The translations under genes and the position numbers were made by a program. A stretch of 26,046 nt of DNA from a virus, in the IMG/VR virus record IMGVR_UViG_3300037189_004619, positions 1 through 26,046 of that record. One strand, written 5' to 3'. Positions 1 through 25,406 of this stretch are shown here, in pieces (the first letter of the stretch is position 1; the number at the start of each line of letters is the position of its first letter). The notes under the pieces are model-generated. The model did not search any database. It was not told the DNA's origin and saw only the letters and a program-made list of their open reading frames with translations.

Positions 1-65
1 CGTTCTGCGCTAGGTCTACTCAAGATGTAATTGACGAGTTCGCAAGGCTTGGCGTGACGATATGA
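1..65 (+). CDS. VRR-NUC-like nuclease, C-terminal end only (copy 1)
   Basis: An open frame enters from the left edge and stops at TGA 63-65. Only about 20 residues are visible, reading FCARSTQDVIDEF then ARLGVTI. They align without gaps to the last 20 residues of the VRR-NUC protein encoded at 1080-1424 (FVARSIDDVIKGF then AEYGIIL), sharing the A-R-S, D-V-I, F-A and G positions. I infer that a second VRR-NUC nuclease ends here. Its stop overlaps the next start as ATGA, exactly as at the other copy. The catalytic part lies outside the window, so the family assignment rests on this tail and on the matching downstream gene. Confidence 0.6.
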   Translation, partial: FCARSTQDVIDEFARLGVTI

Positions 66-298
66 GCGAAAGAATACTAGCAGAAACTAGACGGCGTGAA
101 TCCGAAAGACAAAAACGTGCCTATGAAGAATACGCCGATCAGCGCGATTCTTTAATGATCATGAAACAACTCCAAACACTAATCTACTCAATGAAGCTTA
201 ATGGTTTTAGATCTAAAAAAGTTCGCTTGCTTTATTGTGGAGCTATACTAGAACTAAATATAAAAGTTGAAACACAATACGGGGGCGACTGGTCTTGA
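62..298 (+). CDS. Small charged protein paired with VRR-NUC (copy 1, intact)
   Basis: This 78 aa protein belongs to no family I recognise. Residues 1-30 are strongly charged and probably helical (ILAETRRRE, then further R/K/E). The C-terminal half looks like beta strands and ends in Q-Y-G-G-D-W-S. The start is fixed by an ATGA overlap with the preceding VRR-NUC-like gene. A diverged relative of the same length sits behind the second VRR-NUC gene at 1421-1660, sharing the N-terminal ILxETRRRExER motif and a C-terminal QYG-WS. That repeated pairing suggests the two proteins work together, for example as a nuclease and an accessory or DNA-binding subunit. This is inference from context only. It is followed by a coupled TTG start for the next gene. 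Confidence 0.75.
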   Translation: MSERILAETRRRESERQKRAYEEYADQRDSLMIMKQLQTLIYSMKLNGFRSKKVRLLYCGAILELNIKVETQYGGDWS

Positions 299-414
299 AT
301 AATTTTAATGATTTTTTAGAACTTATGGGTATCTTGATTGTATCTGGCATGGCTGCTGGCACTGGCTTCATTATCGTTGTCGCTGTCGCATTCTGGCTCA
401 GAAATAATGAGTAG
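295..414 (+). CDS. 39 aa single-pass membrane peptide
   Basis: A TTG start overlaps the previous TGA as TTGA, and a GGGGG Shine-Dalgarno-like run lies about 9 nt upstream. The 39 aa product begins MNNFNDFLEL, then has one hydrophobic stretch at roughly residues 11-34 (GILIVSGMAAG, then IIVVAVAFW), and ends in a short polar tail RNNE. This is a typical one-segment inner-membrane peptide. The gene is short and starts with TTG, so standard gene finders may skip it. Its TAG stop lies just upstream of the HNH gene start. Function is unknown: holin-like or superinfection-type membrane roles are possible, but nothing here decides between them. Confidence 0.6.
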   Translation: MNNFNDFLELMGILIVSGMAAGTGFIIVVAVAFWLRNNE

Positions 415-424
415 GTTAAGCTAT

Positions 425-961
425 ATGCCATCTGGACATTACAAAAGAAAAACTAGGGACGAATATTTCTTTAGCAAAGTTGTTTTTATACCATTTCATT
501 CTTGCTGGGAGTGGATAGGTGGATTGGGCGAAAAAGGCTATGGAATTTTTTCAATAGGCAAAGGTAGCTTTATACACGCACACAGATATTCATACTCAAT
601 ACACAAAAATGAACCTAAAAGAGAAAATGTTATCATGCATAGTTGCGACAACCGATCTTGCGTTAATCCTTTGCACCTTACTGAAGGCACTCAAAAAGAA
701 AACATAAATGATGCTCAGGCTAAGGGTAGATTACCAAAAGCGTCAAAGACAAAAAAAATAAGGCTAAACACAAAAAAAAGAAATCTTGCCTGTTTGGTTA
801 ATATGGTCTGCGCTAACGGTCATGACTTAACAAAAGTGCCGTGGAAGTTTCAAAAAGATAAAAAACGAGGAATAACTTGCACAATGTGTGTAAAAATTTA
901 TAAGAGCAAGTACAAACAATTGAGAAAGGAGAAACTTTACAATGAGCAAAGCAAAAGCTAA
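425..961 (+). CDS. HNH endonuclease (HNH_3 family), free-standing
   Basis: This 178 aa protein has the HNH_3 layout of phage homing-type endonucleases. A CWEWIG motif lies near residues 27-32, a YGxFSI strand near 40-44 and A-H-R-Y-S-Y near 52-57. The active-site segment reads H72-S-C-D-N-R-S-C-V-N81-P-L-H84-L, followed by TQKENINDA. A C-terminal CxNGH (129-133) plus CxxC (152-155) resembles a small zinc ribbon. I chose the ATG at 425 because homologues often begin MPxGxYKR and AGGT sits 8 nt upstream. An ATG at 407, overlapping the membrane-peptide stop, would add six residues. It is related to the minus-strand HNH gene at 8852-9262. Such genes usually nick DNA and spread by gene conversion. 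Confidence 0.88.
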   Translation: MPSGHYKRKTRDEYFFSKVVFIPFHSCWEWIGGLGEKGYGIFSIGKGSFIHAHRYSYSIHKNEPKRENVIMHSCDNRSCVNPLHLTEGTQKENINDAQAKGRLPKASKTKKIRLNTKKRNLACLVNMVCANGHDLTKVPWKFQKDKKRGITCTMCVKIYKSKYKQLRKEKLYNEQSKS

Positions 962-986
962 GAAAAAACCAGCAAAAAAGAAGTAA
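942..986 (+). CDS. Possible 14 aa lysine-rich basic peptide
   Basis: An ATG preceded by AAAGGAG (10 nt spacing) opens a 14-codon frame that reads MSKAKAKKKPAKKK and then stops at TAA. It starts inside the last codons of the HNH gene, in another frame. Nine of 14 residues are lysine, and there is one proline. The product resembles a histone-like or nucleic-acid-binding tail. It may equally be an untranslated AT-rich stretch before the terminator. The good ribosome-binding site is the main argument for translation. It could also be the remnant of a longer gene cut by HNH insertion. Confidence 0.35.
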   Translation: MSKAKAKKKPAKKK

Positions 987-1003
987 TTCTAAACAAATTA
1001 TTT

Positions 1004-1046
1004 TAAAAAAAGGCTGAACTTGCACAACAGGTTCGGCTTTTTTTAT
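1004..1046 (+). terminator. Rho-independent terminator
   Basis: An A-rich run leads into GGCTGAAC (1012-1019), an 11 nt loop and GTTCGGCT (1031-1038), followed by a run of seven or more T. The arms pair through eight positions with two G-U wobbles and extend into A-T pairs. It lies after the HNH gene and basic peptide and before the VRR-NUC gene, so it separates the first accessory operon from the second. Confidence 0.8.
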
Positions 1047-1079
1047 TTCTTTTTTCTGTCACCGTGCTACCGATTAAGT

Positions 1080-1424
1080 ATGGGACAGCAAGAAAAAATT
1101 ATCGAAAATGCAATTTTAGAATACCTCTGGATGAAGGGGGTGTTTTGTTGGAAGCAGCAAACCATCGGGGTCTATGACTCAAAAAAGAAAACTTATCGAA
1201 AAAGATCAAAGTTTCAGTTAGCTGGGATTTCTGACATTCTAGGCATCCTTCCAAATGGGACCTTTTTCGCGATCGAAGTCAAAACGTTTGAACCAAAGAA
1301 ATACGCTTCCCCTGATCAAAAGGAATTCATAAAAAAAGTGAACGAGTGCTTCGGGGCCGCTTTCGTTGCCCGTTCTATCGACGACGTAATCAAAGGTTTC
1401 GCAGAATACGGGATTATACTATGA
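1080..1424 (+). CDS. VRR-NUC domain nuclease (copy 2)
   Basis: This 114 aa protein is a complete, minimal VRR-NUC nuclease of the PD-(D/E)xK superfamily, whose members cut branched or structured DNA. Visible catalytic signature: I-S-D52-I-L-G in the beta strand, P-N-G turn, A-I-E66-V-K68-T, and Q80 in S-P-D-Q-K-E-F. Basic residues at 35-44 could contact DNA. The ATG at 1080 fits the usual family N-terminus (QQEKIIENAILEYL). The open frame extends back to 1020, but that stretch is the terminator hairpin. The stop overlaps the next start as ATGA. Its place next to the terminase genes suggests a role in resolving DNA before packaging, which is inference. Confidence 0.88.
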   Translation: MGQQEKIIENAILEYLWMKGVFCWKQQTIGVYDSKKKTYRKRSKFQLAGISDILGILPNGTFFAIEVKTFEPKKYASPDQKEFIKKVNECFGAAFVARSIDDVIKGFAEYGIIL

Positions 1425-1660
1425 GCGACAAAATTCTGACCGAAACCCGTCGCCGAGAACAAGAACGAATGCGCATAGCTTAAGAAAAGCACCAAGATGC
1501 AAAAGATGCGATGGAACTGTACGAATCCATAAAGCAAGCAATAACGATGACAAAGCTTTACGGAAATGCCAAAAAACAGGAAGTGAACATCTACCTCATG
1601 GGTGCAAGCGTGACCCTAACGGTCGTCCCAGACCAATATGGCTTCATGGGATGGTCATAA
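1421..1660 (+). pseudogene. VRR-NUC partner gene copy 2, interrupted by an in-frame TAA
   Basis: Reading from the ATG that overlaps the VRR-NUC stop gives MSDKILTETRRREQERMRIA, then TAA at 1481-1483. The same frame then continues for 58 codons (EKHQDAKDAMEL through MGWS) to TAA 1658-1660. Total length is one codon longer than the intact paralogue at 62-298. The stop falls exactly where that protein has Tyr21 (TAT), so a single base change explains it. The rest of the frame still matches at the C-terminus (QYG, WS). It is therefore a recently interrupted gene, a read-through gene or a sequencing error. Re-initiation at ATG 1511 is possible but lacks a clear Shine-Dalgarno site. Confidence 0.75.
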
Positions 1661-1705: not shown

Positions 1706-2125
1706 ATGAGCAGAACAGGCAGACCAAATAAAAATATAAACATGACCATGGTTGAAAACCTAGTTCAGTTCGGATGCAAAATTGATTTCATAGCCTATGA
1801 ACTTGCTAGGGACAACGGGATTGCAAAACCAGACAAAAAAGATATTTATAACTATTCCAAAACATTAACGCGCAAATTAAATAGAGAGTTCGGAATGAAT
1901 TTTGTGCAGTATCGTGATTTTTTTAAAGACAAATTAAAGTCCACTGCATGGAAAGTTTATCTTGATGAATCAATAAATAAACGTAATCCAAGGCTAATTA
2001 AAGATTTAATGGATAGATTAGATGGAAAACCACAAGATTCTTTAAAATTATCAGGTGACCCAAGTAGCCCGATCACAACCGACAGCAACATCACTATTGA
2101 ATTTGTAGATAAAAAGATCGAATAA
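1706..2125 (+). CDS. terS: Terminase small subunit (putative)
   Basis: This 139 aa protein lies one base before the large terminase gene and has the layout of a small terminase. A basic start (MSRTGRPNKNI) leads into predicted helices at about 12-60, suited to binding the packaging site. A basic helix follows at about 70-105, then the tail LMDRLDGKPQDSLKLSGDP, a phrase seen in many small subunits. The last ~25 residues (SNITIEFVDKKIE) would reach the large subunit. The small subunit recognises the pac or cos site and regulates the motor. No Shine-Dalgarno site precedes the ATG. The assignment rests on position, length and the C-terminal signature. Confidence 0.75.
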   Translation: MSRTGRPNKNINMTMVENLVQFGCKIDFIAYELARDNGIAKPDKKDIYNYSKTLTRKLNREFGMNFVQYRDFFKDKLKSTAWKVYLDESINKRNPRLIKDLMDRLDGKPQDSLKLSGDPSSPITTDSNITIEFVDKKIE

Positions 2126-2126
2126 A

Positions 2127-3332
2127 ATGAAGCTGCAACTACCTAAGTACGCCAAGGCTTTATTCGAAAAAAAGCGTTTCAAGGTTTTGTACGGTGGTCG
2201 GGGTAGTTCTAAGTCATACACGATTGCCAGAATTTTATTGCTTGAAGGATTTAGGCGCAGGATCAGGGTTCTTTGTGCGCGTGAGTTTCAGAACTCTATT
2301 TCAGAATCAGTTCATTTTTTGTTGGTTCAGGAAATCAATGCACTTGGGCTTTCCGGAAATTACAACATTACGAATTCAAGCATTTCAGGGATCAACGGGA
2401 CAGAGTTCATTTTTAAAGGTGTAAGGCATAACGTACAAAGCATAAAGTCGATGACTGGACTTACCCATCTTTGGATTGAAGAAGCCCAAACCATTTCGCA
2501 AGCATCATGGGACGTGCTTACGCCTACGATCAGGGAACCGGAGTCAGAAATTTGGCTGTCGTTTAATCCGGACGGTGAGGACGATCCTGTTTACAGTATG
2601 TTCATAACCAAAGAAGGTGAACCAATACAGCGCGACGATGCGGTCACCATAAAAGTGAACTGGATGGACAATCCTTTTTTCCCTGACGTGCTTCGAAAAG
2701 AAAAAGAATACTTGTATTCGGTAAACCCAGAACTGGCCGATCATATTTGGGGCGGTAAGTGCCGAACTCATTCCGATGCACAAATATTTAAACACAAATG
2801 GGTCGTGCGTGATTTCGAACCTGATGCAACCATGGACGGGCCTTACTTCGGAGCCGACTGGGGATTTTCTGTCGATCCGACTACACTTGTAAAAGTTTAT
2901 GTCAACCGGACAAATCGCGAACTTTTGATAAGATATGCCGAATTTGGCTACGGTGTCGAATTAGACGATATTCCTAAAATGTTCGATAAAGTCCCACAAT
3001 CTAGGCAGTTTTTGATTCGAGCCGATAGCGCACGACCCGAAACAATCTCATACGTCGGCCGAAAAGGTTTTAACATCACTGCTGTCGATAAATGGAAGGG
3101 ATCAGTCGAGGACGGTGTCGAATGGCTTAAGTCTTTTGAAAAGATCGTAATTCACCCATCATGTGAAAAGATGATTCAAGAAGCTAAAAATTATTCGTAC
3201 AAAGTGGATCGACTCACGCAAGATGTTCAGGTAGAAATAGTCGACGCTTACAATCACGGATGGGATGCAGTGCGATATGCTTATGATCCATTAATCCAAG
3301 CTGGATCGGCAAGCATTTTAAGCGTACTTTAA
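2127..3332 (+). CDS. terL: Terminase large subunit (PBSX/Terminase_3 type)
   Basis: The ATP-driven packaging motor and headful nuclease, 401 aa and complete. Walker A is G-G-R-G-S-S-K-S at 23-30. The Walker B region is L-W-I-E-E at 115-119, followed by a coupling-like S-F-N-P at 145-148. The RNase-H-like nuclease domain has F-G-A-D244-W-G, I-R-A-D300-S-A and H-G-W-D380-A-V-R-Y, three acidic positions expected to hold metal. All key residues are present. The start follows the small subunit stop by one base, so translation is probably coupled. A short gap with AAGGGG leads into the portal gene. Confidence 0.95.
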   Translation: MKLQLPKYAKALFEKKRFKVLYGGRGSSKSYTIARILLLEGFRRRIRVLCAREFQNSISESVHFLLVQEINALGLSGNYNITNSSISGINGTEFIFKGVRHNVQSIKSMTGLTHLWIEEAQTISQASWDVLTPTIREPESEIWLSFNPDGEDDPVYSMFITKEGEPIQRDDAVTIKVNWMDNPFFPDVLRKEKEYLYSVNPELADHIWGGKCRTHSDAQIFKHKWVVRDFEPDATMDGPYFGADWGFSVDPTTLVKVYVNRTNRELLIRYAEFGYGVELDDIPKMFDKVPQSRQFLIRADSARPETISYVGRKGFNITAVDKWKGSVEDGVEWLKSFEKIVIHPSCEKMIQEAKNYSYKVDRLTQDVQVEIVDAYNHGWDAVRYAYDPLIQAGSASILSVL

Positions 3333-4838: not shown

Positions 4839-5087
4839 ATGATTAATTGGCAGATAGGCGTTACGCTTGATGAAGTTGAAAAGCAGGTAATTTTAGCTGC
4901 GCTTCAGTTTTTTCATGGCAATAAAACTAAAGCAGCCGAAGCATTAGGCATTACCTCACGAACAATTCAAAATAAATTGAATTTTTATAATGGGGTTAAA
5001 AATGAACCAGAAGAAGATAATACCGAATCCAATTCTCAAGATGGGCCGGAACGATCCTTGTCCATGCGGAAGCATAAAAAAGTTTAA
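4839..5087 (+). CDS. Small Fis-type helix-turn-helix DNA-binding protein
   Basis: The 82 aa product holds one HTH_8 (Fis/NtrC C-terminal) domain at about residues 10-51. L-D-E-V-E-K leads to I-L-A-A-L, then G-N-K-T-K-A-A-E-A-L-G-I-T and the recognition helix S-R-T-I-Q-N-K-L. AGGGG lies about 6 nt before the ATG. The family binds DNA as a dimer and can bend it or regulate transcription. A DNA-binding regulator between portal and Mu F-like genes is unusual. The tail after ~residue 55 overlaps the SEC-C gene in another frame and looks unstructured, so that part may carry little function. The palindrome just upstream is a candidate target, which is inference. Confidence 0.75.
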   Translation: MINWQIGVTLDEVEKQVILAALQFFHGNKTKAAEALGITSRTIQNKLNFYNGVKNEPEEDNTESNSQDGPERSLSMRKHKKV

Positions 5088-5310
5088 ACACTGCTGTTTG
5101 CCTACGATGCCACTTTATATTGATTCAATGGTTGTATTCGACGAAGCAAAACTATTAGGTCATATCCATGCATCGGCTTTCGAAAAGTTTTGCATTCAAA
5201 CTAAAAGATTTTTTGTAAGGTTAAAACAATGGCAATTAAAACATTCCTTCCTATCGTTGAAAAAGAATCTGACTACAAAGACATTCAAGAAGAAATCATT
5301 CTTGTTTTAA
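5002..5310 (+). CDS. SEC-C zinc-motif protein
   Basis: The 102 aa frame carries a full SEC-C motif at about residues 15-33 (GRNDPCPCGSIKKFKHCC) with C20, C22, C31 and/or H30/C32 as zinc ligands. SEC-C motifs occur at the end of SecA and on many small adaptor proteins. The ATG at 5002 has GGGG 6 nt upstream; another ATG at 4990 would add four residues. Both ends overlap other genes: 86 nt with the HTH gene and 82 nt with the Mu F-like gene. The C-terminal ~27 residues are K/F/L-rich and read like a shadow of the next gene. Function in the phage is unknown. Confidence 0.65.
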   Translation: MNQKKIIPNPILKMGRNDPCPCGSIKKFKHCCLPTMPLYIDSMVVFDEAKLLGHIHASAFEKFCIQTKRFFVRLKQWQLKHSFLSLKKNLTTKTFKKKSFLF

Positions 5311-8833: not shown

Positions 8834-8880
8834 TTGGGGGATGGCAGCTTGCTATCCCCCAATTTTCAAACATTTTTTTA
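8834..8880 (+). terminator. Strong Rho-independent terminator after the capsid gene
   Basis: TTGGGGGAT (8834-8842) pairs perfectly with ATCCCCCAA (8854-8862) around a short inner stem and loop (GGC, AGCTT, GCT), followed by T-rich DNA ending in seven T at 8873-8879. It ends transcripts of the head operon. The minus-strand HNH gene has its stop codon (8852-8854) inside the hairpin, so the stem may also mark the 3' end of that gene, although the minus side lacks a T-run. Confidence 0.85.
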
Positions 8881-9262
8881 CAGCATTGTATTTGCATACT
8901 CGACACTGTCTGTATCCTTCTTTTGTTGTATATGTATTTTTTGAGGTAAATTCATGTCCATTTTTACAAAAAGAATTTTTAGACGTATTAACAAGTCCTC
9001 TGTTGATATTTTCTTTTTGCGTCACAGCCTCAAGATGATCTGGATTAACGCAGTCTCTTTTTCTACAAAGATGATCGATTTGAAAACCATCTGGAATTTT
9101 TCCTTTATAAAATTCATAAGAAAATCTATGGGCGTATGTTTGTTTCCCATTAACGCAAAAAACAGCATAATCACCATTTTTGCCCCCAGTTTTACTAGCC
9201 ATCCATATCCAACAGGCTTCAGTTTTTATTATTTTTTTAAGAAATCTTTTTTCTTCATTCAT
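8852..9262 (-). CDS. HNH endonuclease (HNH_3 family), antisense insertion
   Basis: A 136 aa minus-strand gene, the only clear one here. Domain order: C-W-I-W at 17-20, G-D-Y-A-V-F near 30-35, Y-A-H-R-F-S-Y near 43-49. The active site reads I-D-H64-L-C-R-K-R-D-C-V-N73-P-D-H76-L, followed by TQKENINRG. A C-terminal C99-x-N-G-H103 and C120-x-x-C123 pair matches the other HNH gene at 425-961. All catalytic residues are intact. It sits in a roughly 490 bp gap between capsid and connector genes, a common insertion point for free-standing endonucleases. The start at 9262 lacks a Shine-Dalgarno site; an AT-rich TAATATTATAC lies just upstream on the same strand. Confidence 0.9.
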   Translation of the reverse strand: MNEEKRFLKKIIKTEACWIWMASKTGGKNGDYAVFCVNGKQTYAHRFSYEFYKGKIPDGFQIDHLCRKRDCVNPDHLEAVTQKENINRGLVNTSKNSFCKNGHEFTSKNTYTTKEGYRQCRVCKYNAVKKCLKIGG

Positions 9263-20316: not shown

Positions 20317-21855
20317 ATGAATAACGTCACTAGAAAAATATTTAAAAAAAACGATACGTTTATTGTTCCAGCGGGTGTTACACAGGTTAGTGTAATTCCA
20401 AATTATAATGCATTAAATCCATTTTATAGTTTGAGAGCTACTCAACCAACAGGCGGCGGGAACTATATAATAACATCTGGTGGAAGTGTTTTTTTATGGG
20501 GACCTCAAGACGGAACAATTTCTTATCCTTTATCCCCAGAACAACAGTCACAAAATGTAATTAACTTTTTTGCTGGAAACAATAAATCTTTTTGGCTATT
20601 TCAAGACGGAATGTATGCAACGGGTGGAAATAATGAAGGTCAGCTTGGAATTGGAAATACTACAAGTCAAGTATATACGACTAGAGTAAAAGTTTTAAAT
20701 CCATCTAATTCAAAATATGTTGCAGCATACTCTTTTGGATCATCATTTTTTTTAGATGAACTAGGAAATGCGTATTCTGTTGGTAAAAATAGAAGCGGAG
20801 TTCTTGGAGATGGATCTGTTGCATCAACCACCGCTGCAAAATCTACTCCAACCCTTGTTGCTGGTGGCTATTCTTTTAAGAAATTATATCCACTTAGGGG
20901 CGGTGGTGATTTTGGAGCTATAGCAGGACTAACATTTGATGGCGATTTATATACTTGGGGATTTAATGAAAGCGGTGGAGCTGGACAGCTTGGGGATGGA
21001 ACGTCTGTTTCTAAGTCATCCCCAGTGTTAGTTGTAGGCGGTTATAAATTTAAGGACTTTTTTAATGGACAAGGTGGTGGGCCAACTTGCTTTGGAATTA
21101 CAGAATCAGATGATGCTTATGCATGGGGAGGAAATACCGCTGGATCTCTTGGGGCTAATATTACAATTCCACCCTCAGCGGTTAGTTCACCAGTATTAGT
21201 TGTTGGTGGATTAAAATGGAAAAAAATAGTTCAAACTATCAATAATACTACAATTGGATTAACAACATCTGGACAGCTATATTCTTGGGGTGCAAACACA
21301 AACGGTGCTTTAGGACAAAATAATCCAACAACTTCTGATAAAATTAGTAGTCCTGTACTTGTTGTAGGCGGTAGAACTTATGTTGATATTTTATCTTTAT
21401 CGGATTCTATTTTTGCACTTGACACTAATGAAGACATTTATTCATGGGGAAATAATGTATTTGGTCAGCTAGGGACTGGAGATGTACTTCCAAGATCATC
21501 ACCAACAATAGTGGTTGGTGGATTAAAATTTAATTCGTTTTGTTTTTTAAAGTCAGAAATGATAACTGCGCTTACAACGTCTGGACGCTTATATTCTTGG
21601 GGAAATAATGGTACTGGTGTAGTTGGAAACGGAACTAATGCTAACTCTTATTCAAGCCCTGTTTTGGTTTCAACAACGGCTATGCCTTTTTTAAGTAATG
21701 CATTATTAACAACTGGAGTTATGAATAGAACGCCTATTAGTGTTAAACCTGGTGAATCTTATTCAATTAAATTTTTTAATGGTGCAAGTTTTTTTGGAAA
21801 CAATCAAATTGCTTATGGACAATTAGAAAGCATAACTGTTGAATACGAATCATGA
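20317..21855 (+). CDS. Tail fibre/receptor-binding protein with RCC1-type beta propeller
   Basis: A 512 aa protein. The N-terminus F-I-V-P-A-G-V-T-Q-V-S-V (15-26) and C-terminus I-S-V-K-P-G-E-S-Y-S-I-K-F to S-I-T-V-E-Y (474-510) are typical of phage fibre beta-domains. Between them lie RCC1-type repeats. Each has a (D/G)-x-x-Y-x-W-G-x-N core, G-x-L-G-x-G, and S-S-P-V-L-V-V-G-G. Repeats start near 98, 150, 209, 266, 319, 371 and 423, about 52-59 residues apart, with a weak eighth near 55. Seven repeats fit a seven-bladed propeller. DNA here looks more AT-rich and CpG-poor than its neighbours, suggesting later acquisition. Likely role is host receptor binding. GGGG lies 8-11 nt before ATG. Confidence 0.85.
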   Translation: MNNVTRKIFKKNDTFIVPAGVTQVSVIPNYNALNPFYSLRATQPTGGGNYIITSGGSVFLWGPQDGTISYPLSPEQQSQNVINFFAGNNKSFWLFQDGMYATGGNNEGQLGIGNTTSQVYTTRVKVLNPSNSKYVAAYSFGSSFFLDELGNAYSVGKNRSGVLGDGSVASTTAAKSTPTLVAGGYSFKKLYPLRGGGDFGAIAGLTFDGDLYTWGFNESGGAGQLGDGTSVSKSSPVLVVGGYKFKDFFNGQGGGPTCFGITESDDAYAWGGNTAGSLGANITIPPSAVSSPVLVVGGLKWKKIVQTINNTTIGLTTSGQLYSWGANTNGALGQNNPTTSDKISSPVLVVGGRTYVDILSLSDSIFALDTNEDIYSWGNNVFGQLGTGDVLPRSSPTIVVGGLKFNSFCFLKSEMITALTTSGRLYSWGNNGTGVVGNGTNANSYSSPVLVSTTAMPFLSNALLTTGVMNRTPISVKPGESYSIKFFNGASFFGNNQIAYGQLESITVEYES

Positions 21856-22829
21856 TGAAAAAAAATGATCGTATCGTTATTCCTGCAACCCTTATTCCGT
21901 CTTTTCGTACTCAGTTAGCAATTCAAAACAAGATAGAAAAAAACTTAATATTTAGAACTTGGGGCGGTCTAGGCGATCAGATTTGTGCAGAGCCAACGCT
22001 TCGTTATGCCTTATCAGCGTTTAAGGATTGCAAGGTTTCATTGGCTTCGGAGCAGCCGGAATTATTTCAACACTTAAACTTTCATGAGGTGTTTGATTTA
22101 AAAAAAGTCACGCCTAATTACGATAACTATTTGTCCTTTGAAACTATTACACCGCCAAACGACTCAAACCTTGTGTGGCAGTTTTTTTCTCACATGCTTA
22201 CTAACTGCGTTGATTTCCCTTCAATGTGTGCGCTACGCCTACAGCTTCCAATTGCGGACAAAGAAGTAAAGCTAGTCGACGTAGGATGTAAAACAGACCT
22301 AGATTTTTCTAAGTCAGTTATTATTCATGCCGGAAAACACTGGGCATCAAAAACATTTCCAAAGCATTGGTGGGATGCGGTTATTGCCTCAATTATTAAC
22401 GACGGATTTATTCCCGTCCTAATCGGAGCAAACACGGACGACAATCGCGGAACCGTCGACGTAGACACTCGAGGATGTATTGACCTAAGAAATAAATTCT
22501 CGATCATGGAAACTATTTCCATACTTAAACAAAGCAAGGTTCTTTTAACTAACGACTCAAGCCCGATGCACATGGCCGTAGACTCGGATTGCTGGATCGG
22601 GTTTATTGCAACGTGTAAGCACCCCGATTATATTATGCATTGGAGAAAAGGCCAATTCGGACACCGCATGGTAAACCACGGTAAAGGTGGAATTTGGGAT
22701 ATTATTAGTAACTGCCCGAATGCAGAACAAGAAGTAACGGCCGAATACGTCGACGAGAAAACACTAGAATCTTGGCTTCCTAATCCTGTAGACTTTAGTA
22801 AGTGGGCAACCGATAAACTAAAGGAATAA
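21852..22829 (+). CDS. GT9 (heptosyltransferase-like) glycosyltransferase
   Basis: A 325 aa GT-B fold glycosyltransferase resembling ADP-heptose:LPS heptosyltransferases (GT9). The N-terminal nucleotide-fold motif is F-R-T-W-G-G-L-G-D-Q near 34-43, followed by P-T-L-R-Y-A-L. The C-terminal half has I-I-H-A-G-K-H-W-A-S-K-T-F-P near 157-170 and the donor-site motif L-L-T-N234-D-S-S-P-M-H240-M-A, which is diagnostic. It overlaps the RCC1 fibre gene by ATGA, so the two are translationally coupled. It may glycosylate the fibre or alter host surface sugar. Both are inference. The start at 21852 has a second in-frame ATG at 21855. Confidence 0.85.
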   Translation: MMKKNDRIVIPATLIPSFRTQLAIQNKIEKNLIFRTWGGLGDQICAEPTLRYALSAFKDCKVSLASEQPELFQHLNFHEVFDLKKVTPNYDNYLSFETITPPNDSNLVWQFFSHMLTNCVDFPSMCALRLQLPIADKEVKLVDVGCKTDLDFSKSVIIHAGKHWASKTFPKHWWDAVIASIINDGFIPVLIGANTDDNRGTVDVDTRGCIDLRNKFSIMETISILKQSKVLLTNDSSPMHMAVDSDCWIGFIATCKHPDYIMHWRKGQFGHRMVNHGKGGIWDIISNCPNAEQEVTAEYVDEKTLESWLPNPVDFSKWATDKLKE

Positions 22830-23808: not shown

Positions 23809-24186
23809 ATGGCTGCTGCAAAATACGACATTACAATCGAACAGGGCGCGACCTTTATTAAGAATTTTGTTTATCAAGATTCTAATGGAAACCCTATTAA
23901 TATGACTGGAATGACTTTAACTGCACAGGTTAAACGTACATATTCGGACACTACTCCTTCCGCTACTTTTACTTGTACGATTGCAAATCAGGCTATTTCT
24001 GCAAACCTAGGAAACTTTACTATTGAGTTATCATCTATCGAAACGGCTGCGCTTTTACCTGTTCAGGCACAAGATTTTCAAACTCCATCAACTAACTATT
24101 GCTGGGATCTATATTTAAACACTGGAACAATAGTTAAACGACTTCTAATGGGAACTGCATTTTTATCGCCTGAGGTAACTGTTTAA
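23809..24186 (+). CDS. Small beta-structured phage surface protein (putative)
   Basis: A 125 aa protein starting directly after the lipoprotein stop. [11 protein letters not shown] near 5-15, then [13 protein letters not shown] near 24-36, and a final [15 protein letters not shown] form a pattern I have seen in many phage tail-region proteins. The fold looks like a beta sandwich. The same region encodes fibre-type proteins, so this one is probably a virion accessory or fibre-associated module. No enzyme motif. Its stop overlaps the collagen-like gene start. Confidence 0.65.
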
Positions 24187-25406
24187 TGAGCGACGGAATT
24201 ATAATCATAAAAGAAAGTAGTGATTTAAAAATTATAATTTCTGATGTTGGAACACAGGGGCCGGGCGGTGCTTCTGGTCCACAAGGGCCTGTCGGAGCAA
24301 CTGGCCCAACAGGTCCAGCTGGTCCGGAAGGACCTACCGGCGCGACCGGTCCTCAAGGTCCGATCGGGCCTACCGGCGTAGGTATTAATCCAAAAGGTAG
24401 TGTTGATACGTTTGCAAACTTACCGCTAAACCCTGATCCCGGTGACGCTTGGATTACCGATGATACGAACCGTTTATATATCTGGTCTGGACTTGTTTGG
24501 GTCGATTCTGGTGACATTTCTGGACCGCCCGGTCCTACAGGACCTACGGGAGCAACCGGTCCAGCGGGGGCAACTGGAGCAACTGGAGCACAGGGTCCGC
24601 AAGGTATTCAAGGCGTAGCAGGAATCGGGATTAATCTTTTGGGTGAAGTTGCAACCGTAGGAGACTTACCGGTTAGCGCATCTGTTGGTGACGCTTATAT
24701 TGTTTCGGCTAACGGTCATCTTTATCAGTGGAATGGTTTAATATGGATCGACGTTGGGACTATTGTTGGTCCTCAAGGTCCGGCCGGAACTACGGGCGCA
24801 ACTGGTGCAACTGGTCCTCAAGGACCTACTGGACCAACCGGTCCTACTGGTGCAACCGGAGCAACTGGACCTACGGGCCCAACTGGTCCTACTGGTCCCG
24901 CTGGTCCGAATGTAATTAACTCCGGGGTAACTGCAACCGATATTACGGGCATAATAAAGGGCAATGGATCTGTAGTTTCCGTCGCCGTTGCCGGAACCGA
25001 TTATCAAGCACCGTTAGGATTTACCGCTGTTCCAGATACTCGCACAATTACTGCTGGAACTGGATTAACCGGTGGTGGTGACTTAACGGCGAACAGAACA
25101 ATTTCATTGGCAAACACAGCGGTAACGGCTGCATCATACACAAACGCAAACATAACAGTAGATGCTCAGGGACGCATTACAGCTGCCTCTAACGGTAGTT
25201 CTGGTGGTGTTTCTTCTGTTTCAAACGTAGATGGAACATTAACTATAAGTCCGACAACAGGCGCGGTTATTGCGTCTTTATCAAACTCTGGTGTAACGGC
25301 TGGTACTTATTTAGTGACAGGAGCAACTATTGATTCTAAAGGTCGTGTAACTGCCGCGCAAGAAAACTACTATTTAACAATCGTGAACGCATTAATTTTT
25401 GGTTAG
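24186..25406 (+). CDS. Collagen-like tail fibre protein
   Basis: A 406 aa fibre. Three Gly-X-Y blocks (about 22-66, 113-148, 195-241) are separated by two related ~45-residue modules: [14 protein letters not shown] to L-V-W-V-D-S-G, and [14 protein letters not shown] to L-I-W-I-D-V-G. The triplets are rich in G-P-T, G-A-T and G-P-Q and should form a trimeric triple helix. The C-terminal ~165 residues carry fibre motifs: [21 protein letters not shown], then [15 protein letters not shown] and a second S-K-G-R-V-T-A-A. Start overlaps the previous stop as ATGA-type. Role: side fibre or capsid/neck appendage. Confidence 0.85.
24249..24911 (+). repeat. Tandem Gly-X-Y coding repeats (collagen-like), three blocks
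   Basis: Short GC-richer 9 bp units of the type GGTCCTACT, GGAGCAACT and GGACCAACC recur in three blocks near 24249-24383, 24522-24629 and 24768-24908. They code Gly-Pro-Thr, Gly-Ala-Thr and similar triplets. Such repeats are prone to expansion and contraction by slippage, so copy number may vary between isolates. They are coding repeats, not CRISPR: there are no constant repeats with unique spacers. Confidence 0.75.

Follow-up and report, generated by a model that had tools for sequence, protein, structure and literature searches.

The solved stand-alone VRR-Nucs psNUC, stNUC and saNUC (PF08774; PDB 4QBL, 4QBN and 4QBO) are single-domain proteins, and enzymes of this kind cleave four-way junctions as homodimers, needing no partner (PMC4103454). 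For T4 endonuclease VII, a phage resolvase, a de-branching role in packaging is known (PMC3485210). In the type VI secretion system (T6SS), VRR-Nuc toxins have dedicated immunity proteins encoded next to them, in TseV/TsiV pairs (PMC9635880). We analysed a stretch of viral DNA, hereafter the window, which is a complete virus record of 26,046 bases and so has no sequence preceding base 1; searching the phage collection turned up no near-identical phage. At its left end, a VRR-NUC gene and a small gene follow each other twice. The first-pass annotation had taken nuclease and partner for a functional unit and proposed that the partner may found a new nuclease accessory family. Our results do not support a new conserved VRR-NUC accessory family; a phage-specific orphan gene that is decaying beside an ordinary resolvase would explain them more simply, although the pairing of the two genes in both diverged copies does genuinely hint that they were linked in the past.

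The one complete nuclease gene (1080-1424, plus strand) encodes a stand-alone VRR-NUC of 114 amino acids, a predicted Holliday-junction resolvase. It matches the PHROG 93 endonuclease profile (phrog_93, 2e-15) and the PHROG 5702 Holliday junction resolvase profile (phrog_5702, 1e-9) over most of its length, aligning to only part of the far longer PHROG 93 profile (613 positions). Its score against the Pfam family VRR_NUC (PF08774), 18.6 bits, lies below the gathering score of 23.8, which is a practical cutoff and not a biological defining feature. Residues D52, E66, K68 and Q80 and a glycine are invariant across 11 relatives, and the profile matches the solved structures 4qbl (E 4e-4), 4qbn and 4qbo. 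The predicted structure (pLDDT 88) matches psNUC/stNUC (4qbl, 4qbn), RecU and Hjc; the Foldseek values for 4qbl are E 5e-4, prob 1.00 and TM 0.63. In predicted fold, size, single-domain build and SD/EVK/Q motif residues the phage protein is like psNUC, stNUC and saNUC, though distant from them, at ~21-24% identity over the structural match. This motif, profile and fold evidence outweighs the sub-cutoff single-sequence Pfam score, and the annotation of the gene as a VRR-NUC was thus correct. By analogy with the junction-cutting homodimers (PMC4103454) and with T4 endonuclease VII (PMC3485210), a resolvase acting before packaging would be its likeliest function.

The left edge of the window holds the 3' end of a second such gene (1-65, plus strand), of which 20 C-terminal codons and a TGA (63-65) are inside the record and the catalytic core and all else are off it. 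Bases 3-65 translate to FCARSTQDVIDEFARLGVTI followed by the stop, and the tail aligns without gaps to the C-terminus of the complete nuclease, FVARSIDDVIKGFAEYGIIL, with 10 of 20 residues identical and a C-terminal ARSxxDV motif present in the tail. The end-anchored BLOSUM62 score is 47, a value reached by 0 of 200,000 shuffles; among 7,719 ORF C-termini from related contigs the next best score was 33, and the top three include two VRR-NUCs. Being so short, the tail reaches only 3.7 bits with an 11-member profile. With an end-anchored score beyond all controls and shuffles, the tail very likely represents the last codons of a VRR-NUC gene, and the ungapped match pointed out in the annotation is beyond chance.

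Both VRR-NUC frames overlap the downstream small gene through ATGA (62-65 and 1421-1424). The first small gene (62-298, plus strand) is an intact open frame for a 78-residue orphan protein. The second (1421-1660, plus strand) is interrupted: it translates to MSDKILTETRRREQERMRIA, then meets a stop codon, TAA, in frame at 1481-1483 (TAT, for Tyr21, in copy 1), and resumes as EKHQ. An alternative code in which TAA is a sense codon was rejected, as neighbouring genes end in TAA. The two proteins are homologous, with 30-31 identical residues in 80 alignment columns (~39%), and the alignment contains the ETRRRExER start and QYG..WS end that the annotation had described as common to both. Its picture of two related proteins of about 78 residues, each joined to a nuclease by ATGA, therefore holds for the homology, the overlaps and copy 1, and fails for copy 2 at the stop. 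Likewise, the pair order is present twice, but one partner is interrupted and the left nuclease is seen as a tail only. An intact small frame beside a complete nuclease does not occur in the window: copy 2 carries the TAA, and the nuclease of copy 1 lies outside the record.

Divergence between the copies is deep. Synonymous differences are saturated (pS 0.85, against pN 0.46), DNA identity is ~52% and no repeat between them was detected at the DNA level; the copies are therefore old, from duplication or separate acquisition. Conservation is strongest at the N-terminus, with 13 of 20 residues identical before the position of the stop and 17 of 56 after it (pN 0.29 and 0.52, respectively). Downstream of the TAA, copy 2 has no further stop or frameshift and remains alignable to the conserved QYG..WS end. 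Because the rest of the frame is free of other lesions, the stop is probably recent, or else may reflect an error in sequencing or assembly. Copy 2 is a probable pseudogene.

The small protein gave nothing significant in Pfam, PHROGs, PADLOC or NCBIfam and no significant sequence match to PDB chains. The model of copy 1 (pLDDT 82, pTM 0.50) consists of a long helix (residues 3-47) and a beta hairpin (51-68), and a fold search with it returned no match at E < 0.1. When the record was searched with copy 1, copy 2 was recovered with the same tool (E 6e-11); this positive control was the sole match obtained anywhere. Tblastn of phages and plasmids yielded no homologue, nor did profile searches of 37 related records and of 369 genomes belonging to the same phylum as the Bdellovibrionales MAG L121, and none lay beside the 23 further VRR-NUC genes that we inspected. 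Viral and genome contigs scanned with peptide patterns were equally negative, such patterns having limited reach for a family defined by only two sequences. The gene was also not found in the relatives closest in terminase or in capsid, including 80 capsid relatives, some of whose loci end short of the upstream region. A weak profile match at 2058-2513 of locus L055 (E 0.8) was dismissed as a chance hit, the ORF instead bearing a weak resemblance to the window's putative small terminase subunit. Linkage of the small protein to VRR-NUC genes elsewhere was accordingly not found, a comparison of little power for a family that has no other known member. With two diverged copies in one phage and no homologue in the collections searched, the proposal of a new accessory family is not borne out.

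As the annotation had stated, the two pairs flank an HNH gene. This gene (407-961, plus strand) encodes an HNH endonuclease of 184 amino acids, putatively of the homing, zinc-binding type (phrog_826, 1.8e-23, among others; PF05551 and PF13392 below cutoff). Between it and copy 1 we read from the sequence a putative membrane-spanning ORF of 39 amino acids (295-414, plus strand), whose TTG start overlaps the stop of 62-298 (TTGA). A second HNH gene of the same type (8852-9262; PF13392, 5e-14) immediately follows the major capsid gene and, being on the minus strand, runs against its neighbours. It would fit mobile HNH genes, not a cassette role. Between the first HNH gene and the complete VRR-NUC gene, a terminator-like stem-loop of 17 pairs, 5 of them G-C, precedes a T run (1006-1044, plus strand); four such sites were found, against 2.7 expected in shuffles. 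Given this hairpin, a new transcription unit may start with the VRR-NUC gene (at 1080) and continue into the terminase genes. These comprise a probable small subunit (1706-2125, plus strand), assigned by position and with no family match, and the large subunit (TerL; 2127-3332, plus strand; PF04466, 2e-45; PF17288, 5e-16).

The rest of the record showed several other features. Two ORFs in different frames overlap between the portal and head genes, one of Fis-type helix-turn-helix character (4839-5087) and one with a SEC-C zinc motif (4990-5310); in the same place, Bdellovibrio phage phi1422 has a gene annotated as a sigma-54-dependent regulator. The tail-gene region includes an RCC1-type repeat protein (20317-21855; PF00415, 2e-37) and, overlapping its gene by four bases, a heptosyltransferase-like glycosyltransferase of family 9 (21852-22829; PF01075, 9e-9), a pairing unusual for a phage. 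A collagen-like repeat protein (24186-25406; PF01391, 4e-18) is encoded in the putative tail-fibre region.

TerL is 68% identical to that of relative L003, 59% to that of L004 and 55% to that of phi1422. Downstream, phi1422 and the window have their terminase, portal, Fis-type regulator and head genes in similar order; in the pre-terminase region of phi1422, unlike that of the window, neither a VRR-NUC nor the small gene was found. In phi1422, L004, L041 and L045 an opposite-strand ParB-like gene occupies this slot, whereas in L003 a VRR-NUC gene directly precedes the terminase genes without the small gene. Together with the window and L011, these loci suggest that the slot before the small terminase gene takes interchangeable DNA-processing modules. 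The VRR-NUC loci gathered for comparison were 27 from viruses and five from genomes, one of the latter in a Bdellovibrionales MAG. Where other VRR-NUC genes have a close downstream ORF, it is of one of several unrelated kinds, none akin to the small protein; by eye, these ORFs are winged-helix-like (L035/L036), zinc-finger-like (L016) or membrane-like (L021).

How the small gene came to follow the nuclease can be read in several ways. These unrelated ORFs trailing other phage VRR-NUC genes, none common to the window, are what one would expect if small genes become coupled to VRR-NUC by chance operon packing, unrelated to nuclease function. We consider this a possible but not the favoured explanation, as the same pairing has been kept in two diverged copies. 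Identical gene order and ATGA coupling in both copies, together with the well-conserved N-terminus and the precedent of T6SS immunity proteins (PMC9635880), could instead point to a true accessory or regulator of VRR-NUC, such as an inhibitor, a specificity factor or a loading factor, with the intact copy 1 serving both nucleases in trans and the loss of copy 2 tolerated. Against the view that nuclease and partner form a functional unit stand the interruption of the partner beside the only complete nuclease and the VRR-NUC of L003, which lacks it. Furthermore, no homologue accompanies other VRR-NUC genes, and the solved stand-alone enzymes need no partner (PMC4103454). The TseV/TsiV pairs (PMC9635880) share with the phage locus the order of a VRR-Nuc gene and then a neighbour gene, but TsiV3 is ~37 kDa against 78 residues here, no sequence match to a solved chain was found for the small protein in the PDB copy searched, and the phage locus shows no PAAR-like domain or secretion context. 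An accessory role is therefore unlikely in our judgement. A more specific version, in which the helix-plus-hairpin protein is encoded in cis as a dedicated resolvase modulator, a kind of partner not described for phage VRR-NUCs, and copy 2 is regulated by or acts as a 20-residue N-terminal peptide that ends at the stop, appears very improbable; the short-peptide part is prompted by the first 20 residues being the best conserved.

The stop itself could be an artefact of sequencing or assembly, with both partner genes intact. A single T/A difference separates the TAA from the TAT of copy 1, and the remaining frame is open to QYG..WS. Single substitutions in a consensus sequence are, however, usually rare, and the main structural genes of the record are long and open, with no gross assembly errors evident. 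We regard such an error as improbable, somewhat more so than an accessory role.

The account we consider probable is a pre-terminase segment with an ordinary VRR-NUC resolvase and two old VRR-NUC/orphan pairs, one orphan having recently decayed. The region would belong to a tailed phage related to phi1422, and the VRR-NUC would most likely act as a homodimer that resolves Holliday junctions, clearing replicating phage DNA of branches before or during its packaging. The small orphan gene would follow it by translational coupling through ATGA, and the two anciently diverged pairs would stem either from an old duplication or from acquisition of the pair on two occasions, in either case specific to this lineage, the HNH gene between them probably being an independent mobile element. 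On the terminase side the nuclease is intact and the orphan gene appears prematurely stopped, so this nuclease probably works without a partner in cis. Against this account, both copies have retained gene order and ATGA overlap although their divergence is saturated, and this suggests that the linkage was long of importance. The clean, alignable frame after the stop also speaks for a lesion that is recent or an error, and homologues of the small protein may lie outside the collections or beyond the reach of a two-sequence profile.

In summary, a missed stop codon can make a decaying gene pair look conserved. Control of the resolvase by the small protein, if real, would provide a first instance of a phage VRR-NUC enzyme with a partner. 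On present evidence, the locus adds a stand-alone VRR-NUC beside the terminase genes, in the place where relatives have a ParB-like gene.
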